Assembly (NCBI GenBank): GCA_000310025.1
Contig: FN649741.1
Coordinates: 1,111,634 to 1,175,633, forward strand
DNA: 64,000 bases
Reading direction: 5' to 3'
From: Ectocarpus siliculosus
Lineage: Eukaryota > Sar > Phaeophyceae > Ectocarpales > Ectocarpaceae
The notes below the pieces were generated by a model. It searched no databases, was not told where the DNA came from, and saw only the letters and a list, made by a program, of their open reading frames with translations. Position 1 is the first letter of the stretch. The number at the start of each line of letters is the position of its first letter. The position numbers and the translations under genes are program-made. This document shows, in pieces, positions 6,501-53,622 of this stretch.

Positions 6501-9500
6501 TAAGCTACGTGTCCAGGTTGCCCCCGGCGTCGACGTACCAATGTATCCAAACTCGTTGTAGAGCCCAAGCATGAAGTCATGATCAAGCTCACCGTCCATG
6601 CTCGAGAGCTTCCAGAACAGCGAGGGCAACATCCCAGCTGCGAGGAAGCACCATCTGAGCTCCGCGGAGACCCCTTCCGTCAGGCTTGTTGACGAGCCGG
6701 TGAAGAAAACTGGGCGAGGGTTGATCGTCTTCCACGTTTCGCCAGTCGCACGCCCAACCCCCCTTCCACACATGGTTCCCAGCGCTTCTCTCGCCGTGCT
6801 CACCAACTCTTATTGGGAAGCAGCTCGTGAGGCAAACGTGAGGCTCCAACCGCACGGGCTGCATACCATTGCGAACCCAGCCCGATAGCCACGTCCGACA
6901 GGAATTCTCCATTCTACTGCCAATTTCCCCTGCGTTCCCGCCCACCAGGTCACACTTGGTGGCGACGAGGATGACGTCGTTGTCGGGGACGCGTCGAGAT
7001 ATCGATCGCAACCAATCGCAAACCCGCAATTCTTCCAGCTTGCGGCAGTCTTCCTGCTCAACCTCACCACAGTCTTCGCTACCTCGCCGCTGTCCGAACT
7101 CCCCCGCGTTGCACACGAGCACGCAAACCGACCGTGGCGTCAGGAACATCTGCAGCAGCCCCGTGTAGGCGACCTGTTGAACGTGCGTAATGTGGTTCAA
7201 ACATCAAACACCATCGACCTCGTGGCCTCTCATACTCGCGGAATGCACCTAGCCCAAATCTAGACCGGGGGGAAGATTCCATTTGGCGCGGTAAAGCAAG
7301 TACTTACAAAGTGTGGTCCACTCACAATACACGTTCAATTCCTGCACCATCAAGTGGCATTTTCAAGCTTGCCTTGCGTAAGCAACGTGATGAAAAAATG
7401 AGGGATTGACACCCAGTAAATATATAAACTACGCAGCGCACAGTATAAACCATACAAGCGCTGGAATCTTACCCCCTGGCGCAACAACACATTCGTATCA
7501 ACTATTCCGTGGCCACGCCAGATCAAGGTTGTCGATCTCGTGGCCGCAACCCCCAACGAGACGACACGGAACAACAGAAGCCGTGGGTTCTCTCCACCAG
7601 GGCACCCACTACAAAAGAGCCTTGGGTTCTCATTGGCTTAAGGGGACTCGCAAGGATGCGCTCCGAATGCTAAGAGTTTGGACGCAATTATTTCGGGGCC
7701 GGCCAAAGGAACGCACCCAAACGGCCTCGGTCGTTTTGCCGTTTCCCCCGACTGAGGCCAAACGCCTTGAACGAATTCGGCGCACATGCCTCGATGAGCA
7801 CAAACTTCATTACAGCCCCGCGACCTCCAAGCACTCTACACCCGTGCTGCCAACCCGGGTGATACATGTCGCAGGCCTTCGGTGAAGCAAGTCTTGCAGT
7901 GCATGATATGATGTACCAGGTATTTGAACTTATTCGGTGCCGCGTGAGACAACTCTCAATGGCAGGGCAAGCTCAAAGGTATTCGGAGATATTGAGTGCA
8001 GGATTTCGTTTCGTTGGCAATACTTTCTCCACGCATGTAAGGCGGAGAGCGAATGCTCCTGGGCGACGGTCTCACGCAACACCTCCGCCAAGCACCCATC
8101 GTAAACGCTTCGGTATGAACAACACCTGTCACCTGTCCAGCACAGTCGTACACCCGGACGGATGAGCCGTCTAGCTCCATGGGTTCCACGTTCGCAAACA
8201 CAGTGCTCTCCTCATTCCACTTGCCCGTAGGAGATGCTTTGTTGGCCTTCATGCTTTGGCGCAAGCTGCCACAAATAAGAGACGAGTTTCCAACAAATAC
8301 GCAGCATGAATGACGGGGAGATCTAGGAATAGGGTCGTTGGGGCGCAACAAAGTTGAACCGCCGCGGTTGGTTTGTGGCAGTCTACACTCGAAAGCATGT
8401 TGATGCGCGGGGGGGGCAAACAGAGTAGCACGGTGTGGGGCAGGTTTGGTAGGAGGAGTGAACTGGAGACAAAGAGTAGTCCAAACAATGTGGTTGGAAA
8501 AGAACGTGCAAAGTGTTTGGTTGAGGAGGACGAGGCGGGAGGGTGGGAAAGGAGAAAGGGGTGCCATTGATGACAACCTCTATTTAGCAATCCGTACAAT
8601 TGCGGCGCAGCGGCAATTTCAATTTGACCAGCGTAGGCCGAGGGTTGAGCCATACGGACAGGTAATCTTGAAGCGAATAGTAGATACAGTTGGAACCCTG
8701 AATGCGTATTGGTTCGTTTCCGAAACCGATTCAGATGTCCGTGTAAATAGTGGCTGGGTTGTTCTGTATGTGTATGACAATGTCATGACGAACTTGTCCA
8801 TGATGTCCTGGGTCACCAAAGGCTTTTCTAGCGATTACTCTGAGGAAACACCTTCCACCATCTACTTCTTCCCCAATTGCAAATTGGGGTTTTAGCCAGC
8901 ACAATCCCGCAAAAAAGCCATAGAGAAATCTTGCCCGAAAATTACATACTTTAATCAAGTGAAAAAAGTGATCGGAATCGATAGATTATTAAGTGAAAAA
9001 ACTGATCGGAATCGATAGATTAATCAAGTGAAAAATGTGATCGGAATCGGTAGATCAATCATGTGAAACTTGTCACACTTTCTCAACTCTTAAATCAAGT
9101 GAAACTTGTCCCACTTGCTCAGCTCTTAAATCAAATGATAACCAAACCTAGCCAAACCAAACCAAAGGCAACCAAAACCAACCCAACCCAACCCAACCCA
9201 ACCCAACCCAACCCAACGGCGACGAACGACGAAGCGACGGCGGCGAATCAACCCCAACCCCAACCCCAACCCAACCCAATCTAACCAAACCTAACCTAAC
9301 CAAACCAAACTGCTGTGAGCCAGCATGCAAGCCAAGCCAACCCCAAGCCAACCCCAAGCCAACCAAACCAAAAACTGCTGTGTGCGTGCCAGCACGCATG
9401 CCAACCCAACCCCAACCCAACCCCAACCCAACCCAACCCAATCTAACCAAACCTAACCAAACCAAACCAAAACTGCTGTGTGCCAGCACGCATGCATGCC

Positions 9501-10229: not shown

Positions 10230-13200
10230 CTTTTTGGTGTAGTATATGCCCGGTGTGTCTCTTTTGTCTCTCCCGGACAGATACTTGTATGGTTGGAGGG
10301 GAAAAGGATTAGGAAAGGATTCCTGCGGAGGAAAATGGTTCATTACAAAGGGCATCATCATCATTTCCCGTCAGCTCAAGGTGCATTTCCGAAATCAGGG
10401 TACACTTCTAGAGAACAGTAACCACGGCAGGATTTACCCCACCCTTTGCAGGATGCGACGGGGCGAAAGTGGGCCTTCACCAATATCTGAGTTAATTTCA
10501 TGCTGTTGAATGTATGTACCCAGCTGAGGCGCTTTTCGACCTGCGTATACCGTTGTGTGTCGTTTGCCGAAAAGGAAAAAATGCAAATCTACATAAGTTA
10601 ACTACTAATATATGGATGGCGCGAGTGATCGCGCATTCTCCCACCGTAGACCGACTTTTAAAACTAAATTACTCCACAACTAAGAGAGCATCAGTGCCGA
10701 AACGAGAGGTTTGGAAGATCTCGTTCAGAACTTCCTTCGATCTCTCGCCAGGTTTTCGGCTTTGGAGCGATCCACCTAGCTGTGAGAGTCGGTCTCGAGG
10801 TGGTGTCATCAGTGTAGGTGCAAGACAAAAAGTAATCAGAGACGCGAATGGACGGTTCAGACGTGAAATGCCATGTGTGGCTACCGCTCTCCATAAAACA
10901 AACGATTCAGAGGTGAAAAGCGACAAATGTTGTGGTTGATCGATCTTGATACTATACCACACTGTGTCAACTGCGCTGTATCCAAAGATGCCGACCAACC
11001 AATGCTTGGTGCGAGTGCAGTAGTGGGTAACAGCAGGACCATCACATTGCTGACCTCGTTTTTCCCGCGCCTTCCTGCCCGACAAGTACAACCTTGACGC
11101 TGCTGCGCGTGATCCGGCAGGGCTCCGCATACAGGTCTTCGAAATATCCTCGGATACTCTTCGGACCTTTGGCCACGACCGACTCTGGTGGTTCAGTCCA
11201 TGGGTTGCCCCCGAGGCCAACGTACCTCGATGGAACAGGGTCGAGGACGTCAAGCAACCGGCACAGCTGGCTGGGCATTGTTCCACCTACTGAGCAACGT
11301 CGAGAACGCACACGAGATGGGATGAGTATCATGGCCCGCGCCACTAGTGATCACGAGGCCAGAGGGTAGTGGCTTCAGCGATAAGTCATGTTCGCAGTCC
11401 CCGCATAAACTATCCAGATTTCTCTTGAGGTGGATGCAGGATGGGTGACCACATTGAGACGTTACCGAACGAGACAGTGAAGCTACATAAGGCTGCATCG
11501 CGCAGCAGTCCCATCATCGACACACAAGGCCGTACGTACCACCAACGGACATCCCACGTAACCTTGGTGTGACAGTTTTGCTACGAGATGTTGCGCGATG
11601 TATCAGGCCTTTCATGGGTTCCACCATAGCCCAAATATTCGAAGCGGCACCCGTCAGTGAAATCGGCGGGGTCTTGCCGAGAATTATGAGACACGAGTGT
11701 GATTTACGGAAAACGAAAGGCGGCGGGGTTCCTATTTGCTGCGCAAAGATGGACGTGGCGGATGCTTTTCGTCGAGTACAAACTGGTCGCCCCGGTGGTC
11801 TGGTGGAAACCTCGAAACCGCCACTGGCAAAGTCGTGAGTTTGAACCCCCATGGAGTGAAAAAATTACAACGTTGCGCGTTGAAGCGAAAAAGCTGATTA
11901 CCACACTTCGACATTCGCACCGTTGACGAAGGAAAGGGACGGCTGGACCCTTCTCGAGAAAAAAAAAAATCAGCGCGCACCGCAGGAGGAAGGTGGGGCA
12001 CGATAATATAAAGAAAAAGAAGAAAAAATCCCCGGTGTTTATCTCCTCCTGTTTGACCCGGGATGGTTGTAGTTGTACGAAAAAATTCCAAGAAAAGTGT
12101 AGTACTCTACATGCACTGAAACACGTGTAGTACACTCTCACCACGAAAAATGGGGGACTGTCGCCGTAATAATAGGACGAAAACACACAACACACACATA
12201 TTGAGTCGGAAAAAGCACCCGTCTTCTCGTACGTCGTGGATGCCTTTCTGGTGATTGATTTTCTAGGATGGCATTTGGATGGAGGAATTCTCCTGGGTGG
12301 TGGTCCTCGGTGGCGTCAGCTACTGTACACTCTCACAGACATACGAACCAGTTCAACGTGAACGCGTTGCCGGAGGCGGACGAAATTGCACGCAACGTGC
12401 AGGTAAGAGTGTCCCCGCCTGGGGAGCCGGTAATAGGCACACCGCAGGGTGTTTCCCGTTTGAAGCCGTTTGCTGACGAGTATCTGGCATTTTCTTCGGC
12501 GACATCTACGTCGATGATATGATCAATCTGGAGGCGTGCCCTCATGGAAATGAAAAAAAATTACTTTTGCTTCTAGAAACTACTCTGTAGATCAGTTATT
12601 TCCGACCACCTCCGCATGCTTGGAAGCACAGCAGACAACCCCGTGCCGATAATATTGCAAAAGTAAATTCACAGACTGGTCGGTTCAGCAAGATATTTTG
12701 GGGTATGCAATAGACGCGTAGAGGATGACCATTGCGATTCCCACAAAAAGATCGAGGAGGCACTGGCGTTACTGGCTGAACGGCCGAACACGTATGCAAT
12801 AGACGCGTAGAGGATGACCATTGCGATTCCCACAAAAAGATCGAGGAGGCACTGGCGTTACTGGCTGAACGGCCGAACACGTGGGGGGGGGGGGGGGGGG
12901 GGGTTTTCTCCAAAATCCTGGCTTCCCGAAGGGGTTAAACCTTTTAAATCCCCTCAAAAAAGGGGAAAAAAACCCCCGGGTTTTCCCCGGACCAGGTTTT
13001 TTTTTACCCTTGGCGAAAGGCCCTGGGGGATTTTGGGAAGCCCCAAAAAAAGGGGCCCCCTCCCTGTTGGGGGGTTTCGGCCTTTTTGTTTTTTTTTTTT
13101 GGGAAGGGAAAAAACCTCCCCCCGAAAAAACAATTTTTTTTTTGGGGGTTTTCCTTTCCAAAAAAAATTTTAACCCTTTTTTAATTCCCCCGGGGGGGTT

Positions 13201-16200
13201 TGGGAATTTTAAAAAAACGGGGGGGAATTTCCCCCCTTACCGGGGGGGTTGTTTTTCCCCCCCCCCAAAAATGATTTCTCCCCCCCCCTTTTAGGGTTCC
13301 CCCCAAATTGGGGTCCTCCGGGAAGTTTTACTATTTTCCAATCCAGGGCCCCCTTTCCAATTTTTCTCCCCTTTGTCTTGGGAATTTTTTCTGGGGGCCC
13401 CGCCCCCCCCTTTTTTTCTTTTTNNNNNNNNNNNNNNNNNNNNNNNNNNNNNNNNNNNNNNNNNNNNNNNNNNNNNNNNNNNNNNNNNNNNNNNNNNNNN
13501 NNNNNNNNNNNNNNNNNNNNNNNCTAAACGGCCGACAAGGGGGGGGGGGGGGGGGGGGGGGTTGTACTCAATAGTCGTGCATGCCGGAGTGGTTAGACCA
13601 TTGAACATCCCTACAAAGACGGGATAGAGCACGCCAGGTTCTCACCGGACCAGGCTCTCATATCACCATGCGCGAAGCGCCGTGAGGTATTCGGCGAGTC
13701 GCATGAAGAGTGCGCTGCATCCTGCTGAGGGTGTTCGGCATCTTGTGCTTACTTCCTTGCGTACGGATGACAGCTGCGCACGTATGACTCAATTTATTTT
13801 CTGGTGCTTTCACTTCCAGAGACAATTGTAAGCACTGTGTAACTGCCTCGAGGGTGCTTGGCGATTTTAACACAACGTGGTGCGATCATCCCCCTTACGC
13901 GGAGTGATGGTTCTCGACCCCGCACAACATGATCTACTCGACCACCATTCAAGGTTACCCGCAAATGTGAGTCTCTCGTGTAGCTGTACGTATGTCCTAC
14001 TCGAGGTCCCCTGTCCAACTGTTCCTCCGCTTGCTCTGCGGATCTTTCCGTGCGGTCCGCGCGCACCCGTATGTCACTGTATGCACATACCCGCGTACCA
14101 CATATATACACTCAACCGCCCAGATGGTTGTTTATCGTCTCACGCCCAGGGAGATTCCCCGGTAGCGTGTCAGTGCTGCACCACGTCAGCACGCCAGCAC
14201 AGACTGTGTCTGTGTCACCGCCTAGTCAGGTCGGTTCTGCGTCATCAGGGCTGCCTCTTCACCCCTCCTCTGTCACTCTTCTTCTTTCCCTCTCTTCCTA
14301 GAGACCACACCGTTGGTTCCTCCTAGAGAACTACTCCTGTCCCGCAAGTCTGTGCACTAGCGGCTCCCCACCGTCGCTCCGGAAGTCTCCTCTGGTCACA
14401 CAGTCGAGAGAAGGTTCAACCCTTTCCGTCGGTCTGAGATAGGTCACCCTTACAAAAAAAAAAAAAGGAAACAAAAAACCCGGTAACCTGGTTGCCGAGC
14501 TCACGAAGTGATCGGCTTATTTTACAACGTCGTTGCCAAGCGACGAAAACCCAACCCCGATGGCAAACACCGGGGGGGCGATGGGCGAGGGCAAAATAAG
14601 TATGGAGTTTGAATGGGAAGTTACGACACCTAACCACGGTAGTGCGGGCAGGAAAGTAAATCGTGTGGCGGCTTGGGTTTGTCACGGGGCCTGCAGATAA
14701 CGATCAACACGCGTCGGCGGTCATGAAAGAATCTACCGTGATTTCTGGGTGAGGAGTTTTACGCGGATTTGGAGTGATGGGAGGTGGGCGGCGCGCCAAC
14801 GCTCATTGGCGGAGGGTGTTCTCTGTATTCCCCGTATTACGATCATGCGCAATGGGAGCCGACGCGGCCTTGGTTGCTACGCTCGAAGCTATACCGGGGT
14901 ATTGCAGCGAGCAGGGGGGTGGTGGAGGTACGATCTGTCTCAAGAGGAGAATTGTCGCTCTTCCGATACTGCTACTTGTTCTCGGCAGAATATGCTGTCC
15001 ATCAATCTCTTGCAAGCATTGCCGATGGTTATCAACGTGCACGTGATGATCGTCGTACTCAACGACTGGCCCGTCCTAATCGAGGAACTTGCTCCTTTCG
15101 CGGTGATAAACCTCCGCTGTGACATGGGTAAACCAGTGTGGGGGCACCCGGGAGCCACGCGCCGCGTTTATGATGAGATGGCTGGGCGTGTTGTAGATGA
15201 CGGGGGGGTGGTGTCTCGAAGCGGCACACATCCCTGGTAGTAGAACGTTTCGGAGGACGGACTTTCGCGGTGGGCACACGAGGATATCCCTCGCAAACGA
15301 ACTGAGCTGTCTCCTCCCCCTCATGTGAGTTGGCAGGAGGTCAGGCTGGGGAATTCATGTGGGATGGCATGTGAGGCTGAGCCTGCCCTTCAACTCCAAA
15401 ATTCATTCCTCACATGGTACACTTCCATACATACGAGTTCCGACGAGCTGAGTTTTTAGTACAATATGAACTGCTGTTGGCATCGAGGACAGCCGACATC
15501 ACGCACGCCCGTTCGCCATTGCGGTATACCAACCCACGCTGAATACCGCTAGGTCCACTCGCAGGCAGACAAATGACTGCGTCGAGGGTTCCACTGTGCA
15601 CATATTGCTAAATGCAGGCATACCTGACATGCTGTCACCTCTCTCTTTGGGGTCGATATCTTGAACATCTTGGGTATGGTCCCAGAGAGCTGCCAAGCGA
15701 ACCGAGATCGCCAACAGAGGTAGAAGCAGGCAGCCAAACAGAGAAGGGCCAAAGTGAATAGATTCAGCAAATATAGGGGTTTTGTCGAAGCGTAAGGTCG
15801 TGGAAAGGCTCGGGATACAGAAAGCAAAGTAGGTCAGAATCAAGATCGCATCATCGACGGGACTGTGGCCATAAGCCCACCGCGAAACCTGAGACTGCTG
15901 TATTGGCTATTCCTGATTCAAAACGAAAAACGACATGGCCGTTGATCGAAGCTCCAGCATGTGCGTGGCCGTTTACTTCTAGTCAGTCGTGTGGGGGCAC
16001 CCGCCTCTGCTCCTTGTCGAATTTCGATTTCTTTTATTCCTAGGCGATGAAATATGGTGAGGCATATCAATCATTCATTTATTCAGCTGAAACGGGAAAG
16101 CAGATCTTGCATTCGTTAAACCCTCCGGGGACCGTTTCGGTCGCTTAGGTGACAAGAAAATGAAGGGCAGCCAGCTTGCACGCATCTCGGAATAAGGGCG

Positions 16201-19200
16201 CCACCACTCAAGGAGACGCTCACACGGCATAGCTAATACTTTCCTAGTTACAATGCCCCTGTTGCGTGCCGTCTCATGCTCTGGCTGTCTCATTCTTTAG
16301 GCGAAATCTCCGAGTACCTGTGCGGCTTGAAGAAGCTGACGTTTCTTCCGGCGAAAATGAGTTCACGGGATGGATCAAACCCACCTATTGTCTTGCACAA
16401 AAACTGTTTTCCCATGCGAAAGTGGAAATTCAAAACGAGGGACCCACTTTGGACGCTTCCATACAAGAATTGTCCCGGTGTACACTAGCGTGTCAAAAAC
16501 AATTGTCTGCGTCGGCAGGACCATTGTTCTAGAAGCTGTGTCGCCCGAAAAATCATATTTTTAGGTTATCCCCGCTTACTTCGTATTCGCTCATTCTCTT
16601 GCAGGCTTCATCACCAGAGCTTGGAGCTCTCAAGAACCTATGGACGCTACAGCTCTCCATCGACAACCTCACCGGTACCTTTTTATTACGGTTGATACCC
16701 ACTGGTTCTATGGATGAACGACGCCGATGCGTACACAGGATTCATCTGCACATACGGCAACTTCACAGAAGAATGTTGGAATTGTGCGATATGGGCCCTA
16801 GGGACTCACCGCTCAACTCGTTCCCGATGAGGTATAGCCCTAGCAGTGCCGTGAGTTTTCCCAGCTCCGCCGGGATGGTGCCTGCCAGACGAAAGGGAAT
16901 AAGAAGTTAGCGGGGGAAAACAAAATAAATCCCCCGGCGTCAAGAAAAACGGTCCTGCCAACGCGTGCGCGGGATTCACCTTGAATCCAGATCGACCCTT
17001 TTTCGGTTCCTCACCTGTGAGCCGGTTTCCTCCGAGCAAAAGACTTTTCAGCTTACTCAGCGCTCCCAGCTCCTTGGGAATGAGTCCTGTACAAAAGACA
17101 TAGCAGGGGAAATTAGGTAGAGCAAAAGATATCCCGCGAGTTCCGCAATTTCGTACTCGCCTACGCATGGGCAGGACACATGCATATGTTGCAGAATATA
17201 CAAAAAAGAAAGGATTCAAATTTCAACACCTCTCTCACCGCTGAGCTGGTTGTAGGACAGGTCGAGCCACGTTACACTGTTGAGAGCGCCGAGCTGAGCG
17301 GGGATCGCACCTGCGTAGATATCGAAGTAGTTAGAGTTGCGGTGCGGTGTCTTCGATTCTAGAACATCGGACGCGTAGCAAAAGATGTCCCGCGAGTTCC
17401 GCAATTGTGAAATTTCGTACTCGCCTGCGTGATTAGTTGTTCTCAAAAGCGGGGACTTGTATTGTTTTTTCCCTGATCATCTCATTTTGCTCTTCTGCTT
17501 GCAGGCCCCATCCCACTGGAGCTTGGAGATCTCCGAGAGCTGCGGGAGCTGTGGCTCTACAACAACAAGCTCACAGGTAAGCTTATTATTTTGGCAGTCG
17601 TTTCAATATATTGTTAGCCTTGATTCTGGATGAACCTCGCTGATGCGTAGGCGAGTACGAAATTCACAATTGCGGAACTCGCGGGACATCTTTGCTACAC
17701 GTGTGGGTGAATAGGCGGAGAAGCATTTAGTCAATTCTCTGTTTTTCTCGTATTGCTCTCCTGCTTGCAGGTCCTATCCCTCCGGAGCTAGGGAAGCTTG
17801 GCGCCTCGAAGAGACTCGATCTCAGCAACAACAAGTTAGATGGTGAGTCCAGGAGATGAAATCCATTTTATTTACTATTATGTTGACACAAGGTACATGA
17901 ATCTCGCCGACGCATCGGCAGGATTCATGCATACACCACTTCTTCAGAAGTCGAAACAAAGTTCCTGAACTCACCCTCTAAAGAGTTGCTAGCGAGGTAG
18001 AGGTTCTCCAAGGCGCGCAGATTCCCTAGCTGTGGTGGGATGTGCCCTGTAGATAACGCAGCAAGTCAAAAGAACAAACCAAGGAAAGTATCGAATTTCG
18101 AATTGTTCTTGATGTTCGATCTCCGGAGATGCTGTTCCGCCCACTAGTGGGTGGGAAAAGATCTACGGAGATCGAATATCCCGAAAAAAAGAGAGCCGGG
18201 TGATCTATTTCTATATCCCCCGCCAATGTGTTACTCTTCTGCAGGTGCGATTCCGGCGCAGCTCGGCGCTCTAAATAAGCTCACGCTGCTCGACCTGTCC
18301 TACAACAAGCTTAGCGGTTAGAGAGCGGTAAGAGACTGATGAAATTTGATACTTTTTTTTCTCGAACATATTTATGTGTCCATTCGCGAGTAGGTAGTCT
18401 AGAAGCCGGGGGATTGTTGTTTTTTGTCCCGTGTCACGAACTGCTCTACAGCAACAACCTTACAGGTACCACGAGTTTTTAGAAATGAAACCGGGTTCCA
18501 TGGATGAATCCCGCGTATGCATCGGCGAGATTCATGCGGCGTGCGTGTCGTTCTTGAAAAAGTCGAAATAATATTTCACGTTCGATCTCCGGGACTCACC
18601 ATCTAACTCGTTGCTGGACAGGTTGAGCCACGTGAGCTTAGTGAGAGCGCCGAGCTGCGTCGGGATCGCACCTGTAGAAGAGTATTACATGTTTGCGGGG
18701 GAAATAAAAAACCACCCGCCTCTCCATTTTGAAGACGACTGATCTCCGAAGATCTTGTCCCGCCAACTAGTTGGCGTCCACTCACTGGTCTAGAAGCCGG
18801 GGCATTATTTTTGTGTTGACCCGCAACCATGACTCCGTTTTCCTTCTTCCACTTACAGGTCCCATTCCACCGGCGCTGGGAAAGCTCGCAGCGCTTCAAG
18901 ATCTATACCTCTACGGGAAAAAAAATCCCATGAATTTTCAACATGAATCCCGTGTACGCGTGCGCAGGATTCACCTTGAATCCAGATCGACCCTTTTTCG
19001 GTTCCTCACCTGTGAGCCCGTTTTTTCCGAGCCGAAGGTCTTTCAGCTTACTCAGCGCTCCCAGCTCCTTGGGAATGGGTCCTGTACAAAAGACATAGCC
19101 GGCGAATTAGGTAGAGCAAAAGATATCCCGCGAGTTCTGAAATTTCGTACTCGCCTGCGCATCGGCGAGATTCATCCATTGATAAAAAAATTAAACCGAC

Positions 19201-21994
19201 CATCAAAATAAATTAGGTACCTGTGAGGTGGTTGTCGCTGAGCCACAGCCTCTGCAGCTGTCGGAGATCTCCTAGCTCTGGCGGGATGTTGCCTGCCAGA
19301 TGAAGGGAAAACAAGAAGTTGGCGGGAGAAAACAAAATTAATCCCTCGGCGTCTAGAAAAACGGTCCTGCCAACGCGTAGCAAAAGATGTCCCGCGAGTT
19401 CCGCAATTGTGAAATTTCCGTAGGCGAGATTCATGTACGTTGTGTCAACAAAAAAGTAAATAAAATGGATTTCATCTCCTGGACTCACCATCTAACTTGT
19501 TGATGCTGAGATCGAGTGCCTTCAAGGCGCCAAGCTTCCCTAGCTCCGGAGGGATAGGACCTGCAAGCAGGAGAGCAATACGAGAAAAAGAGAGACTTGA
19601 CTAAATGCTTCTCCGCCTACTCACCCACGCGTAGCAAAAGATGTCCCGCGAGTCCCGCCATTGTGAAATTTCGTACTCACCTACGCGTTGGCAGGACCGT
19701 TTTTCTTGACGCCGGGGGATTTATTTTGTTTTCCCCGGCTAACTTCTTATTCCCTTTCGTCTGGCAGGCACCATCCCGGCGGAGCTGGAAAACCTCACGG
19801 CACTGCTAGAGCTATACCTCAACGGGAACGAGCTGAGCGGTGAGTCCCTAGAGCCCATATCGCACAATTCCAACATTCTTCTGTGAAGTTGCCGTATGCG
19901 CAGATGAATCCTGTGCACGCATCGGCGGGATTCATCTTGGAAACTTGAACTAAATCACTTACCAGTTAGTTTGTTCACCCCAAGGTCGAGGTACTCCAGT
20001 ACGGCGAGCCGTCCAAGCTCCACGGGGATGGGGCCTGCAATCGAAAGAGACAAAACGAAACACAAATACCCATAATGTAGCGGGAAGAATCAAAGCTAAA
20101 TGCCCCGGCTTCTAGAAACACTCACCCATGCAACGCGTAGCAAAAGATGTCCCGCGAGCCCCGCAATTTTGAAATTTCGTACTCGCCCAAGCGTTGGAAG
20201 GACCAATGGTTTAGAAAATCCGCCATACCTTTGGAAACTGACAAATATAAAAATAATCACGTTGACACCTCACGGCGTGGGTGAGTAGGTGAAGGTTTTC
20301 GAAAGCAGGGATTTTTTTTATTTTCCCGCTGACTCATCATTACTCTTCTGCTTGCAGGCCGCATCCCGCCGGAGCTAGAAAAGCTGGAGGCACTGGAGAC
20401 GCTCAGACTTTCGGGCAACCAGCTAAGCGGTGGGTGGCAAAAAACGAAAATCTGCAACAAAGAGGCGGGCATATGAAAATGACTACATTGGTAAAGTCCG
20501 AAGCTTCTCGACCTTGTGTTCTGCCTACGCGTAGCAAAAGATGTCCCGCGAGTTCCGCAATTGTGAAATTTCATACTCGCCTACGCGTTGGCAGGACACA
20601 GAAGCAAAGATAAGATATATTATGTGTTATGTCTTCTATAGAACAACGCAAAGATTCATTTTGGCACATTTCTCACCAGTGAGCTTGTTGTCCTGAAGAG
20701 CCAGGGACGTCAGGTTTGCTAGAGCTCCCAGCTCCTTGGGTATTGGCCCTGGACAAAGCAAAATAAGCACAGCGGGGAAAAACCAGAAGTAAACATGTGT
20801 GTGATGAAGCTTCTAGAACAGTGGTCCTGCCAACGCATCGGCGAGATTCATCCATGGATCAATGCTAGAAAATTTTAAGCCGACCATCAAAATAAAATAG
20901 GTGTACCTGTGAGGTGGTTGTCGCTGAGGCACAGCCTCTGCAGCTGTCGGAGATCTCCTGGCTCTGGCGGGATGTTGCCTGCCAGACGGAGGGAAAATAA
21001 GAAGTTGGCGGGAGAAAACAAAATTAATCCCCCGGCGTCTAGAAAAACGGTCCCGCCAGCGCGTAGCAACAGATGTCCCGCGAGTTCCGCAATTGTGAAA
21101 TTTCGTACTCGCCTACGCGTTGACGAGTAGGTGCGTTCTAGAAAAATGTCAGTTGTTCTCCGGAATTCCAGCAACAACATGCCCGTGCTTACTCCATACC
21201 ACAGGACGCATCCCGCTGCAGCTAGGAAATCTTGGCGCCTTGTGGGACCTCGACCTCAGCGGCAAAAATTTAGATGGTGAGCCCACGAGTGAACAGCATC
21301 TTAGTTCTGTATCATCAAAGTACAAAACCTCGCCGACACGTGGACGGGACCGCTATATTTGTCGCAACCTGTAATTTCTCGCTTTCAGTTGTAGCGCTGT
21401 GGTGACCTGGGCAGAGCCGATGCTAAAAGAGCCGGAGGACCTCACGGACCTGAAGGAGCTCGTGTTGCGCAACAGCAACCTTATAGGTAAGAGACAGTGA
21501 ATTTTTTTGTGTCTCCTCTGTATCTCGGGCGGTTCACCGCTCTGGAATGCATGTCCTGCACATGCTGACGGGATACGTGTTCTATGTGGAAGTACAGTAG
21601 CGGTCCCTGTTTAGTGCCGGTTGCCGGTACAGTGCCGGTGTTTTCGGCTCGCACACATTAAAATACCAAGTCGTTCTGTACTTGGAATAGTGCCGGTGTC
21701 CGGTTTAGTGCGGGTGGAATTTCGGCGCACCCTGGCGCTAAACAGGGACCTACTGCTGTATGTTTTCTCTCTAGAGGAAAGCACGCGCAAGCAGCAAATG
21801 CCGAAGAACTCCTGTAAACCTTGTAGGTTGTTCGACGACAGGTGAAGCCCGACCACTCGGCCTTGGTCGTTGACTTCAGCTCCATCCCATGTCGCTAGGA
21901 CAGCATCTGTGTCCCATTTGTCTCTTCGCTTCCATCCAGCCCCGCCGGTCGAACGAAACAGGGCAATCAGTGCTTCGCGATCCGTGGATGCCAT
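158..21994 (-). CDS. LRR-ROCO GTPase gene (whole locus, split by many introns)
   Basis: ROCO proteins couple a Ras-like ROC GTPase to a COR domain. In brown algae they carry an N-terminal LRR domain and are candidate pathogen-recognition receptors. The exons proposed here join in phase from the ATG at 21994 to the stop at 158-160: N-cap, 11 LRR cassettes, linker, ROC, COR and C-terminal region, roughly 1,250-1,300 residues. G1 (GQEGAGKTS, across an intron), G3 (DCAGQ) and G4 (TKCD) are all present. The introns hold opposite-strand LRR cassettes, SINE pieces, microsatellites and a scaffold gap. One C-terminal exon (about 1800-2031) shows a frame break against my memory of the family, and I could not resolve the exon structure between 1177 and about 1800. 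The copy may be a recent pseudogene, or the base may be an assembly error. The family call is secure; the integrity of the gene is not. Confidence 0.85.
797..1177 (-). CDS. ROCO C-terminal exon
   Basis: 381 nt, phase 0 to 0, with a TCACAG acceptor and a GTAAGA donor. It reads GSSKTEDELLRKIEDMAIAM, then RLDTVLESTQESLMRLKNL, APNYLYPRLVVVK and LHFLCPVDMTEVPCG. The first part looks like a coiled coil. The rest is the conserved C-terminal block of the family. No function is known to me for this block. Confidence 0.8.
1800..2031 (-). CDS. ROCO C-terminal exon with a frame break (approximate low end)
   Basis: It starts after a GACAG acceptor at 2031 in phase 1 and reads DVIFREVKARFVVLESQY up to SSIGLPHV. 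The family-like continuation PEISGGTKTTLGSSTDELC then lies in a different frame. As assembled, the exon therefore needs a one-step frame change to match the family. I compared it only with my memory of related proteins. I found no convincing donor and no exon linking this to 797-1177. Confidence 0.55.
2032..3409. other. ROCO intron, no further feature seen
   Basis: No exon-like frame with supporting splice sites was found. A 138-codon plus-strand frame here lacks any recognisable motif. Confidence 0.5.
3410..3530 (-). CDS. ROCO exon: Cys-rich segment after COR
   Basis: 121 nt, phase 0 to 1, with a TTTCAG acceptor and a GTATGC donor. It reads VNRAGDKFLERKCPRCSPE, then GLGAAAIDLVCLVDIRLDR. CPRC together with the preceding exon's CPQH could form a small metal site; this is inference. 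Confidence 0.8.
4280..5045 (-). CDS. ROCO exon: COR domain
   Basis: 766 nt, phase 2 to 0. It begins REFDGSLVRHEKFVFLDVVW and runs through LLNHKDQRTFDGRVKLG, YVLPTLVSVGLTFPLEGDP and WEIFLGVPPGAIEKVL to CPQHGNEMPFANK. COR is the dimerisation domain of ROCO proteins. FVFLDVVWLSRIL is the tryptophan-containing core expected there. No stops occur across 255 codons, so the exon appears to have been held under selection until recently. Confidence 0.85.
5305..5508 (-). CDS. ROCO exon: ROC-COR connector
   Basis: 204 nt, phase 2 to 2, with a GCCCAG acceptor and a GTACAA donor. It reads RDPVEVVLRKS, then ADVYQGITVEELGTKWQETV, then ELERRGITVTNMMNALEGAL. This is a helical segment typical of the start of COR in this family. 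It joins perfectly to both neighbouring exons. Confidence 0.85.
6593..7173 (-). CDS. ROCO exon: rest of the ROC GTPase, G4 motif
   Basis: 581 nt, phase 0 to 2. It opens VAYTGLLQMFLTPRSVCVLV and continues through VCDWLRSISRRVPDNDVILV to ATKCDLVGG. TKCD is the G4 guanine-specificity motif. The exon ends in LPRSWDVALAVLEALEHGR, leading towards COR. No stops are seen. With the G1 and G3 exons, the GTPase looks catalytically complete. Confidence 0.85.
8133..8265 (-). CDS. ROCO exon: ROC GTPase, G3 motif
   Basis: 133 nt, phase 2 to 0. It reads SLRQSMKANKASPTGKW, then STVFANVEPMELDG, then VRVYDCAGQ at the donor (CAG/GTGACA). DCAGQ is the Roc form of the DxxGQ switch II motif that positions the gamma phosphate. 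The acceptor is GTGGCAG. Confidence 0.85.
8953..9062. repeat. Tandem repeat of about 44 bp, three copies
   Basis: Unit contains AAGTGAAAAA, then GATCGGAATCGATAGATTA. Two diverged half-copies follow to about 9130. It lies inside a ROCO intron. Confidence 0.75.
9178..9445. repeat. Degenerate (CCCAA)n / (CCCCAA)n microsatellite
   Basis: Runs of CCCAA and CCCCAA with CTAACC interruptions, in two blocks split by a GCTGTGNNCCAGCANGC motif that recurs at about 9311, 9372 and 9476. It lies in a ROCO intron. Confidence 0.8.
10197..10226. repeat. (CA)n microsatellite
   Basis: About 15 CA units in a ROCO intron. Confidence 0.9.
10285..10575. mobile_element. Old, diverged copy of the fold-back element arm
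   Basis: Shares interrupted stretches with the right arm at 23398-23933, such as GGTTGGAGGGGAAAAGGA, TTTCCCGTCAG and GCGCTTTTCGACC, in the same order. Other bases have diverged, so the insertion into this ROCO intron is old. Confidence 0.65.
11055..11286 (-). CDS. ROCO exon: start of the ROC GTPase, G1 P-loop
   Basis: 232 nt, phase 1 to phase 2. It reads LLDVLDPVPSRYV, then NPWTEPPESVVAKGPKSIRG, then YFEDLYAEPC, and ends in VVLVGQEGAGKT. The Walker A/G1 loop GQEGAGKT binds nucleotide phosphates, and its final Ser codon is split across the intron. Joining to 8133-8265 gives GKTSLRQSMKANK, the expected G1 helix. The next intron is about 2.8 kb long and holds repeats. Confidence 0.85.
11783..11855 (+). 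mobile_element. tRNA-like head of SINE family 1 (partial)
   Basis: Carries CGCCCCGGTGGTCTGGTGG (A-box region) and GTGAGTTTGAACCCC (B-box region), matching the heads at 24676 (plus) and about 44921 (minus). The tail is missing. Confidence 0.6.
12703..12880. repeat. 89-bp tandem duplication beside the scaffold gap
   Basis: 12703-12791 and 12792-12880 are essentially identical. A third partial match (ACGGCCGAC) begins right after the gap at about 13527, so a longer array is probably collapsed here. Confidence 0.8.
12883..13423. other. Low-quality assembly sequence after a 21-G run
   Basis: After G at 12883-12903 the sequence becomes short homopolymer blocks (AAAA, GGGG, CCCC, TTTT) unlike anything else in the window. 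This is typical of failed single-read ends beyond poly-G. Open frames here should be ignored. Confidence 0.85.
13424..13523. other. Scaffold gap of 100 N
   Basis: Exactly 100 Ns, a conventional placeholder, followed by a second poly-G run at 13539-13561. The true gap length is unknown. It lies in the ROCO intron between 11286 and 15624. Confidence 0.99.
13575..13612 (+). mobile_element. Fragment of SINE family 2
   Basis: GCATGCCGGAGTGGTTAGAC followed by CATTGAAC resembles the tRNA-like start of family 2 (compare 45605-45722 on the other strand). Only the head is seen. Confidence 0.45.
15624..15689 (-). CDS. ROCO linker exon after the LRRs (LWDHTQDVQD)
   Basis: 66 nt, phase 1-1, with a TGGCAG acceptor and a GTATGC donor. 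It reads LWDHTQDVQDIDPKERGDSM. I recognise LWDHTQDVQD as the conserved segment that follows the LRR array in Ectocarpus ROCO proteins. Its phase matches the cassettes, so it can accept the last LRR whatever the repeat number. Confidence 0.75.
16301..16375 (+). pseudogene. Degenerate LRR cassette, plus strand
   Basis: It follows a CTTTAG acceptor and reads EISEYLCGLKKLTFL. Spacing resembles the LRR consensus, but the asparagine ladder and the donor are lost. It is the outermost relic on the left of the array. Confidence 0.45.
16605..16674 (+). pseudogene. LRR cassette, plus strand, 2 nt short
   Basis: It follows TTGCAG and ends before GTACC, but is 70 nt instead of 72, so it could not be spliced in frame. 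It reads SSPELGALKNLWTLQLS then DNLTG. Confidence 0.65.
16810..16881 (-). CDS. LRR cassette exon, minus strand (11, last before the linker)
   Basis: 72 nt, phase 1-1, with a GGCAG acceptor and a GTGAGT donor. It reads TIPAELGKLTALL then LYLIGNELSG. The whole module is an inverted near-copy of the plus-strand cassette at 19768-19839. Confidence 0.85.
17015..17086 (-). CDS. LRR cassette exon, minus strand (10)
   Basis: 72 nt, phase 1-1, with a GTACAG acceptor and a GTGAGG donor. It reads LIPKELGALSKLK then LLLGGNRLTG. It is a same-strand duplicate of 19010-19081. The module lies between ACGCGT at 16961 and ACGCAT at 17163. Confidence 0.85.
17239..17310 (-). CDS. LRR cassette exon, minus strand (9)
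   Basis: 72 nt, phase 1-1, with a CGCAG acceptor and a GTGAGA donor. It reads AIPAQLGALNSVT then LDLSYNQLSG. The module is bounded by ACGCAT at 17163 and ACGCGT at 17371. Confidence 0.85.
17371..17430 (+). repeat. 56-bp inter-module spacer
   Basis: Starts ACGCGTAGCAAAAGATG and ends TACTCGCCTGCGT. The right core is decayed. Confidence 0.7.
17505..17576 (+). other. LRR cassette exon on the plus strand, antisense to the ROCO gene
   Basis: 72 nt, phase 1-1, with a TTGCAG acceptor and a GTAAGC donor. It reads PIPLELGDLRELR then LWLYNNKLTG. It is fully intact as an exon but points the wrong way for the host gene, and no plus-strand N-cap or ROC exon exists to use it. Confidence 0.8.
17643..17702 (-). 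repeat. 56-bp inter-module spacer, inverted
   Basis: The same spacer in reverse, from ATGCGTAGGCGAGTA to TTTGCTACACGT. Confidence 0.7.
17771..17842 (+). other. LRR cassette exon on the plus strand, inverted twin of 19489-19560
   Basis: 72 nt, phase 1-1, with a TTGCAG acceptor and a GTGAGT donor. It reads PIPPELGKLGASK then LDLSNNKLDG. The exon and about 130 flanking bases match the minus-strand module at 19424-19632 in inverted orientation. Confidence 0.8.
17975..18046 (-). CDS. LRR cassette exon, minus strand (8)
   Basis: 72 nt, phase 1-1, with a CTACAG acceptor and a GTGAGT donor. It reads HIPPQLGNLRALE then LYLASNSLEG. The module lies between ACGCAT at 17910 and ACTAGT at 18143. Confidence 0.85.
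18114..18176. repeat. Imperfect palindrome between head-to-head LRR acceptors
   Basis: Centred on the perfect palindrome CCACTAGTGG at 18141-18150, with outer inverted TTCGATCTCCG / CGGAGATCGAA. It separates a minus cassette (17975) from a plus cassette (18245). A second such site, CGCCAACTAGTTGGCG at 18761-18776, separates 18600 (minus) from 18859 (plus). Confidence 0.75.
18245..18316 (+). other. LRR cassette exon on the plus strand
   Basis: 72 nt, phase 1-1, with a CTGCAG acceptor and a GTTAGA donor. It reads AIPAQLGALNKLT then LDLSYNKLSG. It is close to the minus-strand cassette at 17239-17310. Confidence 0.75.
18436..18465 (+). pseudogene. Truncated LRR cassette, plus strand (3' end only)
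   Basis: Only ELLYSNNLTG and a GTACC donor remain. The acceptor and the first half of the exon are missing. Confidence 0.6.
18600..18671 (-). CDS. LRR cassette exon, minus strand (7)
   Basis: 72 nt, phase 1-1, with a CTACAG acceptor and a GTGAGT donor. It reads AIPTQLGALTKLT then LNLSSNELDG. It is related to the cassettes at 17239 (minus) and 18245 (plus). The module lies between ATGCAT at 18517 and ACTAGT at 18766. Confidence 0.85.
18859..18930 (+). pseudogene. LRR cassette, plus strand, donor lost
   Basis: It follows CTTACAG and reads PIPPALGKLAALQDLYLYG, then runs into an A-rich stretch where the Asn-Leu-Gly end and the GT donor should be. Confidence 0.65.
19010..19081 (-). CDS. LRR cassette exon, minus strand (6)
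   Basis: 72 nt, phase 1-1, with a GTACAG acceptor and a GTGAGG donor. It reads PIPKELGALSKLK then LRLGKNGLTG. It is a same-strand duplicate of 17015-17086, including flanks. The residue differences lie mainly in the variable solvent-facing positions. Confidence 0.85.
19221..19292 (-). CDS. LRR cassette exon, minus strand (5)
   Basis: 72 nt, phase 1-1, with a GGCAG acceptor and a GTACCT donor. It reads NIPPELGDLRQLQ then LWLSDNHLTG. It is the intact sister of the cassette at 20907-20978. The duplication extends through both flanks (about 19150-19420 against 20828-21110). Confidence 0.85.
19489..19560 (-). CDS. LRR cassette exon, minus strand (4)
   Basis: 72 nt, phase 1-1, with a TTGCAG acceptor and a GTGAGT donor. 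It reads PIPPELGKLGALK then LDLSINKLDG. The exon and both flanks are a near-identical inverted copy of the plus-strand cassette at 17771-17842. Confidence 0.85.
19627..19688 (+). repeat. 56-bp inter-module spacer
   Basis: Perfect ACGCGT at both ends, 56 bp core to core. Internally it carries the short inverted pair GCGAGT / ACTCAC. Confidence 0.75.
19768..19839 (+). other. LRR cassette exon on the plus strand, inverted twin of 16810-16881
   Basis: 72 nt, phase 1-1, with a GGCAG acceptor and a GTGAGT donor. It reads TIPAELENLTALL then LYLNGNELSG. The module at 19683-19930 is an inverted near-copy of 16712-16966. Confidence 0.8.
19963..20034 (-). CDS. LRR cassette exon, minus strand (3)
   Basis: 72 nt, phase 1-1, with a TTGCAG acceptor and a GTAAGT donor, the best donor match in the array. 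It reads PIPVELGRLAVLE then LDLGVNKLTG. The module lies between cores at 19917 and 20133. Confidence 0.85.
20133..20194 (+). repeat. 56-bp inter-module spacer
   Basis: ACGCGT on the left, decayed AAGCGT on the right, 56 bp apart. Confidence 0.75.
20358..20429 (+). other. LRR cassette exon on the plus strand
   Basis: 72 nt, phase 1-1, with a TTGCAG acceptor and a GTGGGT donor. It reads RIPPELEKLEALE then LRLSGNQLSG. The module lies between cores at 20189 and 20527. Confidence 0.8.
20527..20588 (+). repeat. 56-bp inter-module spacer
   Basis: Perfect ACGCGT at both ends, 56 bp apart, with the internal inverted pair GCGAGT / ACTCGC. Confidence 0.75.
20677..20748 (-). CDS. LRR cassette exon, minus strand (2)
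   Basis: 72 nt, phase 1-1, with a GTCCAG acceptor and a GTGAGA donor. It reads PIPKELGALANLT then LALQDNKLTG, a full match to the 24-residue plant-type LRR consensus. The module is bounded by ACGCGT at 20583 and ACGCAT at 20833. Confidence 0.85.
20907..20978 (-). CDS. LRR cassette exon, minus strand (1)
   Basis: 72 nt, phase 1-1, with a GGCAG acceptor and a GTACAC donor. It reads NIPPEPGDLRQLQ then LCLSDNHLTG. It is a same-strand duplicate of the cassette at 19221-19292, with Pro for Leu in the conserved ELG triplet. The module lies between cores at 20833 and 21059. Confidence 0.8.
21059..21120 (+). repeat. 56-bp inter-module spacer
   Basis: GCGCGT on the left, ACGCGT on the right, 56 bp apart. 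This is the last spacer before the exon 1 side. Confidence 0.75.
21205..21276 (+). other. LRR cassette exon on the plus strand
   Basis: 72 nt, phase 1-1, with a CCACAG acceptor and a GTGAGC donor. It reads RIPLQLGNLGALW then LDLSGKNLDG. The module lies between ACGCGT at 21115 and ACACGT at 21336. Confidence 0.8.
21415..21486 (+). other. Divergent LRR cassette exon on the plus strand
   Basis: Exactly 72 nt between GGGCAG and GTAAGA. It reads EPEDLTDLKELVLRNSNLIG after a degenerate start. Splice sites are good, but the IPxELG core is lost. It is the rightmost cassette, next to exon 1. Confidence 0.65.
21820..21994 (-). CDS. ROCO exon 1: N-terminal cap of the LRR domain
   Basis: Begins with ATG at 21994 and reads MASTDREALIALFRSTGGAG, then WDTDAVLATWDGAEV, then LHLSSNNLQ. 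This is the standard N-cap of Ectocarpus LRR-ROCO proteins, related to the LRR N-terminal domain of plant receptors. The exon has 175 nt, so it ends in phase 1 (last base G before a GTTTAC donor), which matches the phase-1 acceptors of every LRR cassette. No signal peptide is visible, so the protein is predicted to be intracellular. Confidence 0.85.
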
Positions 21995-22473
21995 TGCTCA
22001 GGGAACCTTCACGGAGTTGATTTGGCGACACGGCGACACGGCTAGTTTCGATCCCGAAAACACCACTTCAACCCGCCTGCGATTTGGAGTCAGTCAAGTC
22101 ACCTCCTAATTAGCAATTATTACAGGGAATGCGAGAGATTGAAAAGAGCTGCGCGAGAGAAGCTCTACATACTTCGAAAATGCGTTTCCCGCGTTCCCGC
22201 AGATGTGGTTGGGGGATTTTGTTTTTTTGCTGGTCGCAGATTTGGACAAAGAGCGAGGACGGATGGCGTGCATGTAAACGCTCACACAGAGCGCTTGTCG
22301 GTAATTGGAAGGGAAAATAATAAGCGCAGCTGGCCGCGGCATTGTTTGCAGAGGAATAAACACCTGAGCACCTCGACCATAAGGAAATTTACTATAGTAC
22401 TACTACTACGTATGATACAATGTACTTACCCGAGGCAGGCAAGGGTGCGAAGAGCGAAGAACAAAGAAACAAG

Positions 22474-23933
22474 GGAAAACGACACAACAGGGTGTATGTC
22501 CCCTGTTCGAAAAGCGACACACCCGTGGGTACACAGTCATTAACAACAGTAAATGCACTCATATGACTGGTCAGCGCCCTATTTCACCCCGGTGCGTCCG
22601 AAAAGGTGCAGGGTATACCCTGCTGTGACTACTTTTCTCAACAACTGTACCCTGTTTTCGGAAATGTACCCTGACCTGACGGGAAATGAGCCCCTTTCAT
22701 CAAACATTTCCCCCGCAGGAATATTCCCAACTCCTTTTTCCCTCCAACCATGGGATACCAAACGGTAAATCTTCCCGCCGAATATCAACCATGGCGACGG
22801 GGCAGGAATCAGTTTCCGCTCCTGCGAAACAACGCCAACCATCAACTCCTCCGCTCTAAATCAACAATGGCCGGGCCAGCACAATTGTTCCGTTTGGAAA
22901 CATGCACACACGCGAACAATACCCCGTGGACTACTGCTTGCTGCAGTCTATATGCAAGATGCACGGGTCACGCTATGAAAGCGAGACCGATCCAGCATGG
23001 TTGACATGCATATGCATGTGCCAATGTGTGGCGCTGTGCTGGCGGCGAGCTCGCGCCCGCAGAGAGGGTGGAGGAGAGAGGCAGGACCAGCACACACAGA
23101 CACGCCCTTGACATCAATCATGCACACACAAGTCTTATCCTTACTCTAGCAGCAGGACACGGCTGTGTCGTGCAACTCAGTCACCCTCCCTGTCGGTAGA
23201 GAGGATAAAGAGTGCTCGCGTTGTATTTCATCGGCTGTATTTCATCGGCTCATCCTGCTGAAGCCTGACGTCTCCTTACAACATTGATTGATTGGTCGGC
23301 TTGGTTGGCTGGTAAGCGTGACCGCTGCTGCTACAGCAGTAGTTGAAGCAAGAAACACATCGCAATTGACACAACAGACAACACACGCACGCACACACAC
23401 ATGCATATGCATGTCAACCATGGCGGATCGGTCTCGCTTTCACAGCGTGACCCGTGCGTCTCGCATATAGACTGCAGCAAGCAGTGGTCCACGGGTTTTG
23501 TTCGCGTGTGTGCATGTTTCCAAACGGAACAATTGTGCTGGCCCGGCCATTGTTGATTTAGAGCGGAGGAGTTGATGGTTGGCGTTGTTTCGCAGGAGCG
23601 GAAACTGATTCCTGCCCCGTCGCCATGGTTGATATTCGGCGGGAAGATTTACCGTTTGGTATCCCATGGTTGGAGGGGAAAAGGAGTTGGGAATATTCCT
23701 GCGGGGGAAATGTTTGATGAAAGGGGCTCATTTCCCGTCAGGTCAGGGTACATTTCCGAAAACAGGGTACAGTTGTTGAGAAAAGTAGTCACGGCAGGCG
23801 CCTTTTCGGACGCACCGGGGTGAAATAGGGCGCTGACCAATCATATGAGTGCATTTACTGTTGTTAATGACTGTGTACCCACGGGTGTGTCGCTTTTCGA
23901 CCAGGGGACATACACCCTGTTGTGTCGTTTTCC
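22474..23933. mobile_element. Large fold-back (inverted-repeat) element
   Basis: Arms at 22474-23020 and 23398-23933 are near-identical reverse complements of about 540 bp, ending in GGAAAACGACACAACAGGG. The spacer of about 375 bp contains CA-rich sequence and a CTGCTGCTACAGCAG hairpin. No transposase frame is visible, so it looks like a non-autonomous fold-back or long MITE. High arm identity suggests a young insertion or ongoing arm conversion. It sits about 480 bp upstream of the ROCO start codon. Confidence 0.8.
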
Positions 23934-24675
23934 CAAGAAACAACTTGGAACTCACCGACGAAATAATAAAACACGGGTCGCAGCAAGTCGCAGGGGCAAG
24001 TGTGGTATCTCGCTCGCAGTATCACGCTCCTCGCGTTCATCAATGTCACCACTCGAAGACTTTGAACCCAGAGCTCCGGTAACTCCTCCCCTTGTTTGTT
24101 GTTTGATGCCGTCCCAATCTACACAGCACAAGCAGTACCTCCTTGTCTGAAATGCGGGCAACCCCTTGAACTGCCATTTTTTTCCGTCTACCTTTCGGAG
24201 GTGGGTGTGGGTATCATCAACGATGCCATCTGCGAGCCCCCTCAGAGGGCTTTTTCCCTCTTTCCCTACCCTCTTGCCCGCCCTCTCCTCACTCCAAAGT
24301 GTGCGTGTGCGTGTGGCGGCAGGTAAAAGGGTGGACTGGTTGGGACTGGTTGCTCGCGCCGCGTGGTTGAGGTTGTAAGGAGTTTACTTCATCAGCAGCA
24401 GCACATGATGACTCTTCGGTGCTGAATCCCCCCGCATCTCTCTCTCGGGGGTCGATCCAACCAAACCTGCGATGTGCGACACAGAGGTCTTCGGGAACCT
24501 CGGTGCTTTCTGTGGCATGCATGGTGGGCCGAATGGTATAGCTGGCTGGGGGAGGTGTCGCTTTTAGGTGAGCGGTCAGTGATGAGCGACAGCAGGGCGA
24601 CAGCAGGTGTGTCGCGTCGCGAATGTGGATGATTCTAAACCGTCGATTCACCTACCGCTTTCCACTATTTGTGTG

Positions 24676-38480: not shown

Positions 38481-38561
38481 GAGGAGCGGTGTAGTTAACT
38501 TCCAAAAAACTTGGTCCGGAAACATTAAAAATATGCCGGTTTATCTATGATCTGGTCGCAG

Positions 38562-53420: not shown

Positions 53421-53584
53421 ATGACCCGAACAACAACTACGCTCCGAGCGCCGCTGGTGCTATTCTTCTCGTTGGTGGTGGTATGGCTTCCGGGTTGCTT
53501 CGGTGGTGCTACTAGAATCGACGGTCGTCCTGCTCGCCGCCACGTCGCGCGAGCAGCCGACTACAGCCTTGGGAACGCACCGGT

Positions 53585-53622
<38 letters not shown>

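Follow-up and report, generated by a model that had tools for sequence, protein, structure and literature searches.

Why would a gene for a receptor-like protein carry LRR exons on both of its strands, and how could such an arrangement have come about? The window considered here, that is the whole stretch of 64,000 nucleotides of Ectocarpus siliculosus DNA that was analysed, holds a locus of this kind, in which a sequence-only reading had described eleven 72-nt LRR exons running with a minus-strand ROCO gene and about eleven more running against it, had taken the latter for a reserve of silent cassettes and had likened the array to a bacterial shufflon more than to ordinary tandem duplication. 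Shuffling of LRR exons in brown-algal LRR-ROCO genes was reportedly described by Zambounis in 2012. As that reading also stated for the shuffling, passages of PMC11378527 present LRR exon shuffling, alternative splicing and diversifying selection as published for this brown-algal family, and they recount that the somatic recombination proposed in 2012 was regarded as unproven in 2024; LRR exons also occur in noncoding DNA, according to a passage of PMC4104024. Our answer, which concerns a single locus in a single haplotype and one assembled sequence, is that single cassettes have probably been inverted and duplicated at palindromic sites in the course of evolution, driven by short homology and with no dedicated programme.

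Architecture of the gene

According to a motif search of all six frames, the N-cap motif (21941-21982), the C-cap motif (11186-11206) and the P-loop (11057-11080), G3 (8133-8153) and G4 (6949-6966) motifs lie on the minus strand and only there. The N-cap belongs to an exon at 21820-21997 (MASTDREALIALF...NNLQG), delimited by motif search and reading, the LRR C-cap and the ROC P-loop share a piece at 11045-11350, and the G3 and G4 pieces of ROC fall in open frames at 7959-8579 and 6592-7203 respectively, all on the minus strand; read along this strand, the order is N-cap, eleven sense LRR exons, C-cap and ROC pieces. When joined, the N-cap and the eleven sense LRRs match LRR_1 (2.2e-41), the ROC pieces, joined by hand, match PF08477 (2.2e-13), and the ROC GTPase domain lies downstream of the LRRs on the same strand. 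All eleven sense exons carry LRRs of one phase in separate units of 72 nt, and this phase is the one described for brown-algal LRR-ROCO genes in passages of PMC11378527. As for a COR domain, the open frame at 4001-5062 matches no Pfam family up to E = 1, and the tRNA and Rfam scans of the window gave no matches. The locus is probably one minus-strand LRR-ROCO gene and, as such, a candidate brown-algal immune receptor.

The surroundings of this gene hold some features of their own. Directly upstream of the N-cap, at 22473-23934, lies a long inverted-repeat element whose arms measure about 540 nt and consist of three pieces (94-99% complementary), and AAGAAACAA flanks it on both sides, resembling a 9-bp target duplication; we take this element to be Mutator-like. 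An open frame at 38495-40036, within a 132-nt tandem repeat array, contains ten FNIP repeat stretches (PF05725, 4.4e-56), another at 53268-54131 has a YidD domain at its end (PF01809, 2.9e-24), and an 89-nt unit at 12703-12882 is present in two perfect copies near a 100-N gap (13424-13523), possibly as a trace of the assembly. The G+C content reaches 0.707 at 62001-64000, with strong skews, compared with 0.48-0.58 in the rest of the window.

Sense and antisense cassettes

Cassettes were called on both strands by a consensus scan with a maximum score of 23, and the splice sites and frames of the exons were checked. Five simulated sequences gave the level expected by chance, with means per 64 kb, both strands together, of 0.4 hits scoring at least 15, 4.8 scoring at least 13 and 73.4 scoring at least 11.

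On the minus strand the scan found eleven LRR cassettes, from 16808 to 20979, with scores of 21 to 23, which is the number that had been read from the sequence alone. Their exons, at 16808-16882, 17013-17087, 17237-17311, 17973-18047, 18598-18672, 19008-19082, 19219-19293, 19487-19561, 19961-20035, 20675-20749 and 20905-20979, are all intact, each with 72 nt, an open frame, and AG and GT at its ends. Nine cassettes on the plus strand score at least 14.5, and the figure of about eleven antisense exons is reached by including two fragments whose scores, taken alone, do not exceed chance, one at 16300-16374 that keeps only its 5' part (score 12.5) and one at 18393-18467 that keeps only its 3' part (score 11). 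Seven of these eleven, as had been claimed, have 72 nt, AG and GT ends and an open frame: the exons at 17504-17578, 18244-18318, 19767-19841 and 20357-20431 are intact, those at 17770-17844 and 21204-21278 are intact except for one structural Leu and the structural Asn respectively, and the one at 21414-21488 is degenerate, its frame open and its splice sites present. Among the others, the cassette at 16602-16676 has no AG where it is expected and appears by eye to be about 2 nt short, and that at 18858-18932 is without its 3' end and donor. Damage thus affects four of the eleven antisense cassettes, with one further degenerate, and none of the eleven sense cassettes.

Since no cap or GTPase motif was found in the six-frame search on the strand of the antisense cassettes, these cannot be expressed as they stand, and to this extent the idea of a silent reserve is borne out. 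The part of it that is not supported is a usable and actively switched reserve, given the difference in damage between the two classes. Structural LRR positions are equally well kept in the six good antisense exons, with two violations, and in the eleven sense exons, also with two. A neutral simulation gave P = 0.088, 0.79, 0.12, 0.48, 0.009 and 0.20 for these six; as the five damaged or degenerate cassettes were excluded from it, the intactness of the six is no evidence for a selected reserve.

Orientation and descent of the cassettes

Cassette orientation along the array is random, with 13 runs against 12.0 expected for the 11 sense and 11 antisense cassettes, the two weak fragments being counted. 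It has also changed repeatedly. In a tree of the 17 intact cassettes, built from 105 columns and with some long branches, orientation has to change six times to account for the six antisense rows, which is the maximum (shuffled labels average 5.2), and the well-supported branches force five. Scattered over the tree in this manner, with six changes for six rows, the antisense cassettes are not one old class. The closest pairs of cassettes are found 6 to 13 cassettes apart. Random orientation, scatter over the tree, distant closest pairs and the palindromic site that recurs at the joins, described below, together make the cassettes unlike ordinary tandem duplicates, and on this point we agree with the sequence-only reading.

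One candidate pattern was rejected. The cassette order F1 F2 F4 F5 had seemed to be conserved three times regardless of strand, and post hoc label patterns for such collinearity gave P = 0.011, 0.017 and 1e-5; in an unbiased chain test of strand-independent collinearity the order was not significant (P = 0.18, 0.094, 0.056, 0.080 and 0.30 at five gap costs, and 0.67-0.79 for the reversed order). A cassette order conserved regardless of strand, as in-place flips would show, is suggestive only.

Palindromic junction sites

The 22 cassettes are separated by 21 intervals, 19 of which contain at least one candidate centre of a palindrome, the exceptions being 16375-16601 and 18319-18392, where none of the 24 centres lies. 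A typical junction site consists of two inverted half-sites of about 10 nt (GTNGGCRRGA) that flank a 2-nt centre, and this central dinucleotide is GC in 20 of the 24, TA in two and AC in two. Read outward from the centre, the half-site is (G/A)T N GGC RRG A (41 of the 48 half-sites, the seven D-type arms being excluded). Its positions 1-2 were used in picking the sites, and the information amounts to 0.58-1.25 bits at positions 4-10, is near zero at position 3 and does not exceed 0.37 from position 11 on.

A leave-out test, in which positions 1-2 were ignored and arms of at least 60% identity were removed from the training, placed 15 of the 24 sites in the top 0.1% and 10 of them above all 19,539 sampled positions outside the locus; nine sites failed, seven of them with a D-type arm. 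When the 14-nt pattern GCCNACGCRTNGGC was scanned with up to two mismatches, 34 matches were obtained against 12.6 expected, and 32 of them are in the locus, at 17 places. Matches without any mismatch include a tail-to-tail site at 17906-17919, a head-to-tail site at 20829-20842 and a site at 17159-17172, all three with the core ACGCAT, as well as a site with the core ACGCGT at 20579-20592 that adjoins a D element. This element is a unit of about 50 nt without an exon between two cores, as at 19624-19697 (plus strand), a 74-nt repeat with six copies in the locus; the D sequence gives nine matches, all of them inside the locus. The two sites with a TA centre are found at 18762-18775 (core ACTAGT) and 18143-18148. 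Two head-to-head introns, 18103-18188 and 18720-18790, carry a second type of palindrome, with the core ACTAGT and GATCTCCGGAGATC-like arms.

Across the five tail-to-tail joins without D, TTCA occupies positions 11-14 from the centre in all ten arms. These joins keep their register to the single base, a precision not expected from random end joining. Short sites delimit the segments of the array, with the exceptions noted above, and recombination may well have taken place at them. In searches of viral contigs the D element had no exact match, and none of the pattern matches to the C-cap/P-loop piece (22) or to the N-cap/LRR chain (15) was confirmed. The tail half-site pattern occurs in one viral contig, and the 22-nt site pattern in 5 viral and 20 bacterial contigs, at one place each, which we took as chance matches.

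Recent copies of single cassettes

Four pairs of segments in the array are 91.5-96.3% identical and contain one exon each; two pairs are inverted and two direct, and two also carry D. The cassette 16808 with its flanks (16722-16966, minus strand) and the cassette 19767 with its flanks (19683-19927, plus strand) are inverted copies of each other (96.3%), as are the cassette 17770 with D (17645-17912, plus strand) and the cassette 19487 with D (19419-19686, minus strand; 93.0%), and the direct pairs, found by the same alignment, are 16961-17172 with 18956-19166 and 19158-19418 with 20834-21104. Of the eight ends of these blocks, six fall no more than 7.5 nt from a centre, and do so in each of the two copies. 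A stricter scoring leaves 9 of the 16 copy-ends at most 6 nt from a centre, a distance at which 8.3% of intronic positions lie, and none of these nine belongs to the fourth block (19158-19418 / 20834-21104). The nearest copies differ by about 4-9%, so that those events of which two copies remain are not fresh.

No close counterpart among the sense exons exists for several of the antisense ones. Among the neighbours of the copied cassettes, one combination in each of two recent pairs, out of four, reaches an exon identity (0.79 and 0.76) above the 90th percentile (0.67), which leaves room for an older duplication of several cassettes. The cassette 16808 is an intra-exon mosaic, the acceptor half and the start of the exon being common to the family of 19219 and 20905 (87%; 16859-16966 and 19270-19378) and the rest not.

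The copies differ more in the exon than in the introns in two pairs (5/72 against 4/173 and 9/72 against 6/135) and less in the other two (4/72 against 15/195 and 2/72 against 13/189). Over the four pairs together, the exons have 17.5 differences at 205 non-synonymous sites and 2.5 at 71 synonymous sites, and the introns 38 at 692; this mainly non-synonymous excess in exons would fit the diversifying selection published for the brown-algal LRR-ROCO family.

How the cassettes may have been turned and copied

The anatomy of the array suggests that single exons were repeatedly flipped or copied as units during evolution. Three mechanisms would leave such an anatomy, namely template switching or short-homology recombination, a site-specific recombinase, and the transposition of units with inverted ends. 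The first ranks highest for us, because it works without postulating an unobserved enzyme, it produces copies, and at a palindrome it is indifferent to orientation. The unit cassette would then be half an intron, the 72-nt exon and another half intron, with neighbouring cassettes meeting at the palindromic junction site. Replication template switching or short-homology recombination at the palindromes, in the germline, would copy or flip these cassettes singly and repeatedly by exchange at or near the centre of the site, with the outcome that neighbours are joined head to tail, tail to tail or head to head and that orientation is random. The sense cassettes would be expected to be spliced into the receptor, and the antisense cassettes would lie within introns, silent until a further rearrangement turns them. 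Such flipping, even if it is evolutionary only, would offer receptor repeat arrays a simple route to gain and lose units.

One point against template switching is the sharp 10-nt half-site, which exceeds its needs, and together with the constant register this sharpness keeps a dedicated recombinase in play. An enzyme of this kind, for which a tyrosine recombinase as in phaeovirus integration would by analogy be a candidate, would flip or insert cassettes at the junction sites in the manner of a shufflon, possibly by way of circular cassettes, and we see a limited chance that it did. Several features are consistent with it: the half-sites, inverted about a 2-nt centre, are some 10 nt long and end sharply on the outside, the joins keep a constant register in ten of ten arms, and orientation is random, as expected from a core that is nearly symmetric. 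In passages of PMC13236599, phaeoviral elements of Ectocarpus are integrated by a tyrosine recombinase at a CC dinucleotide between inverted repeats, and FsV-158 gives GC-GC junctions. However, the viral att repeats are AT-rich in the same passages, which the junction half-sites are not, no recombinase family was matched in the 47 scanned of the 119 open frames of at least 120 aa in the window (a scan that intron-split genes could escape), and the passages of PMC11378527 on this question report neither recombined loci nor such recombinases in brown algae. A pure inversion system, moreover, makes no extra copies, yet copies are present.

That site-specific recombination is a working system in brown-algal ROCO receptors, with intronic sites of about 22 nt and a GC centre at which a recombinase, possibly of phaeoviral or Crypton type, flips and inserts single cassettes in the germline or in body cells and switches antisense cassettes on and sense cassettes off, is in our view unlikely. 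If true, a working system of this kind would be the missing mechanism for the 2012 idea of somatic diversification. The defined junction site makes the proposal of somatic recombination directly testable, by genome searches and by the joins found in long reads.

It appears very unlikely that each cassette behaves like a small, non-autonomous transposon that has the half-sites for terminal inverted repeats and inserted at the ends of other units, in which case it would be the exon-carrying counterpart of an introner. Most units do have inward-pointing half-sites at both ends, the two ACGCGT cores on either side of a D unit give it the look of an insertion, the copies are single units in either orientation and at a distance, and introners with terminal inverted repeats and target duplications of 3-9 bp are described in passages of PMC9860276; but within the window such units were seen in the array only, neither an empty site nor a transposase was seen there, and the shared centre has 2 nt (or a 6-nt core).

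We give little credence to the view that the sense exons receive sequence from the antisense cassettes by gene-conversion-like copying, in the manner of the lamprey VLR genes or of chicken Ig pseudogenes. VLR donor cassettes may lie in either direction with respect to the gene, according to a passage of PMC3308329, two of the four recent pairs have diverged further in their exons than in their introns, and the similarity of 16808 to 19219 and 20905, worth 84 score units, is confined to its acceptor half. Against this, the two remaining pairs have diverged less in the exon than in the introns, most of the excess is non-synonymous and is explained by the published diversifying selection, and the germline gene is already complete.

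A role of the antisense cassettes as RNA, by pairing with sense cassettes in the pre-mRNA, altering splicing or feeding small RNAs, is highly improbable: the predicted duplex energies of -518.9 and -390.3 kcal/mol, compared with -128 and -83 for shuffled arms, and the alternative splicing of tandem LRR exons published for the family (in passages of PMC11378527) would agree with it, but only two antisense cassettes at the locus have a close inverted partner, and such pairing arises with any inverted copy as a side effect. Random inversion and duplication of an ordinary kind, or in part an artefact of an assembly that the 100-N gap shows to be imperfect, with sites that are remnants of one ancestral intron from which the half-sites could descend, is equally hard to credit, as the inverted copies are 4-7% apart and so not chimeric duplicates of one read, several antisense exons are without a close sense counterpart, and joins in constant register are not what random breaks would leave.

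Comparison with known systems

A bacterial shufflon (Rci/sfx) consists of several segments of alternating orientation that are delimited by short sites, and it inverts its units and does not copy them. The likeness drawn by the sequence-only reading is only partly supported: it holds for the anatomy, as the locus too has several segments of alternating orientation with short delimiting sites, and it fails in the content of the segments, which has changed by four single-cassette duplications, two of them inverted, that left copies diverging by 4-9%. No recombinase was found in the 47 of 119 open frames scanned. Phaeovirus integration sites resemble the junction sites in having a 2-nt core (CC, and GC in FsV-158) between inverted repeats and differ from them in that AT-rich repeats join a viral genome to its host, whereas the sites of the locus join exon cassettes (passages of PMC13236599); by analogy, this integration names a class of enzyme that occurs in brown-algal genomes.

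The 90-bp LRR exons of Tetrahymena show massive shuffling of equal-length phase-2 LRR exons, which is attributed to ectopic recombination and retrotransposition in PMC6564038, and the term 'orientation' is absent from that text. Introners, as passages of PMC9860276 describe them, are likewise mobile units that carry splice sites, but they carry introns and the units of the locus carry exons. Closest in kind are the brown-algal LRR-ROCO genes themselves, for which passages of PMC11378527 describe 72-nt exons with one LRR each (nucleotides 3-71, 23 residues), a downstream ROC GTPase, shuffled exons and diversifying selection, all as at this locus; unlike the locus, these passages make no mention of antisense cassettes within a gene or of palindromic junction sites. 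In the literature searched we found no published report of strand-random cassettes or junction sites for the family, which the 2012 study may mention, and in the parts consulted of the published text on it no named sequence on which somatic recombination would act. Strand-random cassettes and junction sites are apparently new, the shuffling of LRR exons in the family being already known.

In the VLR genes of lamprey and hagfish, LRR cassettes lie in either orientation with respect to one receptor gene, as a passage of PMC3308329 describes. Their germline gene is incomplete, is completed from donors and has these donors on its flanks, whereas the locus described here has a complete row of sense cassettes with the antisense cassettes interleaved. 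With this difference, the VLR locus is its nearest functional analogue.
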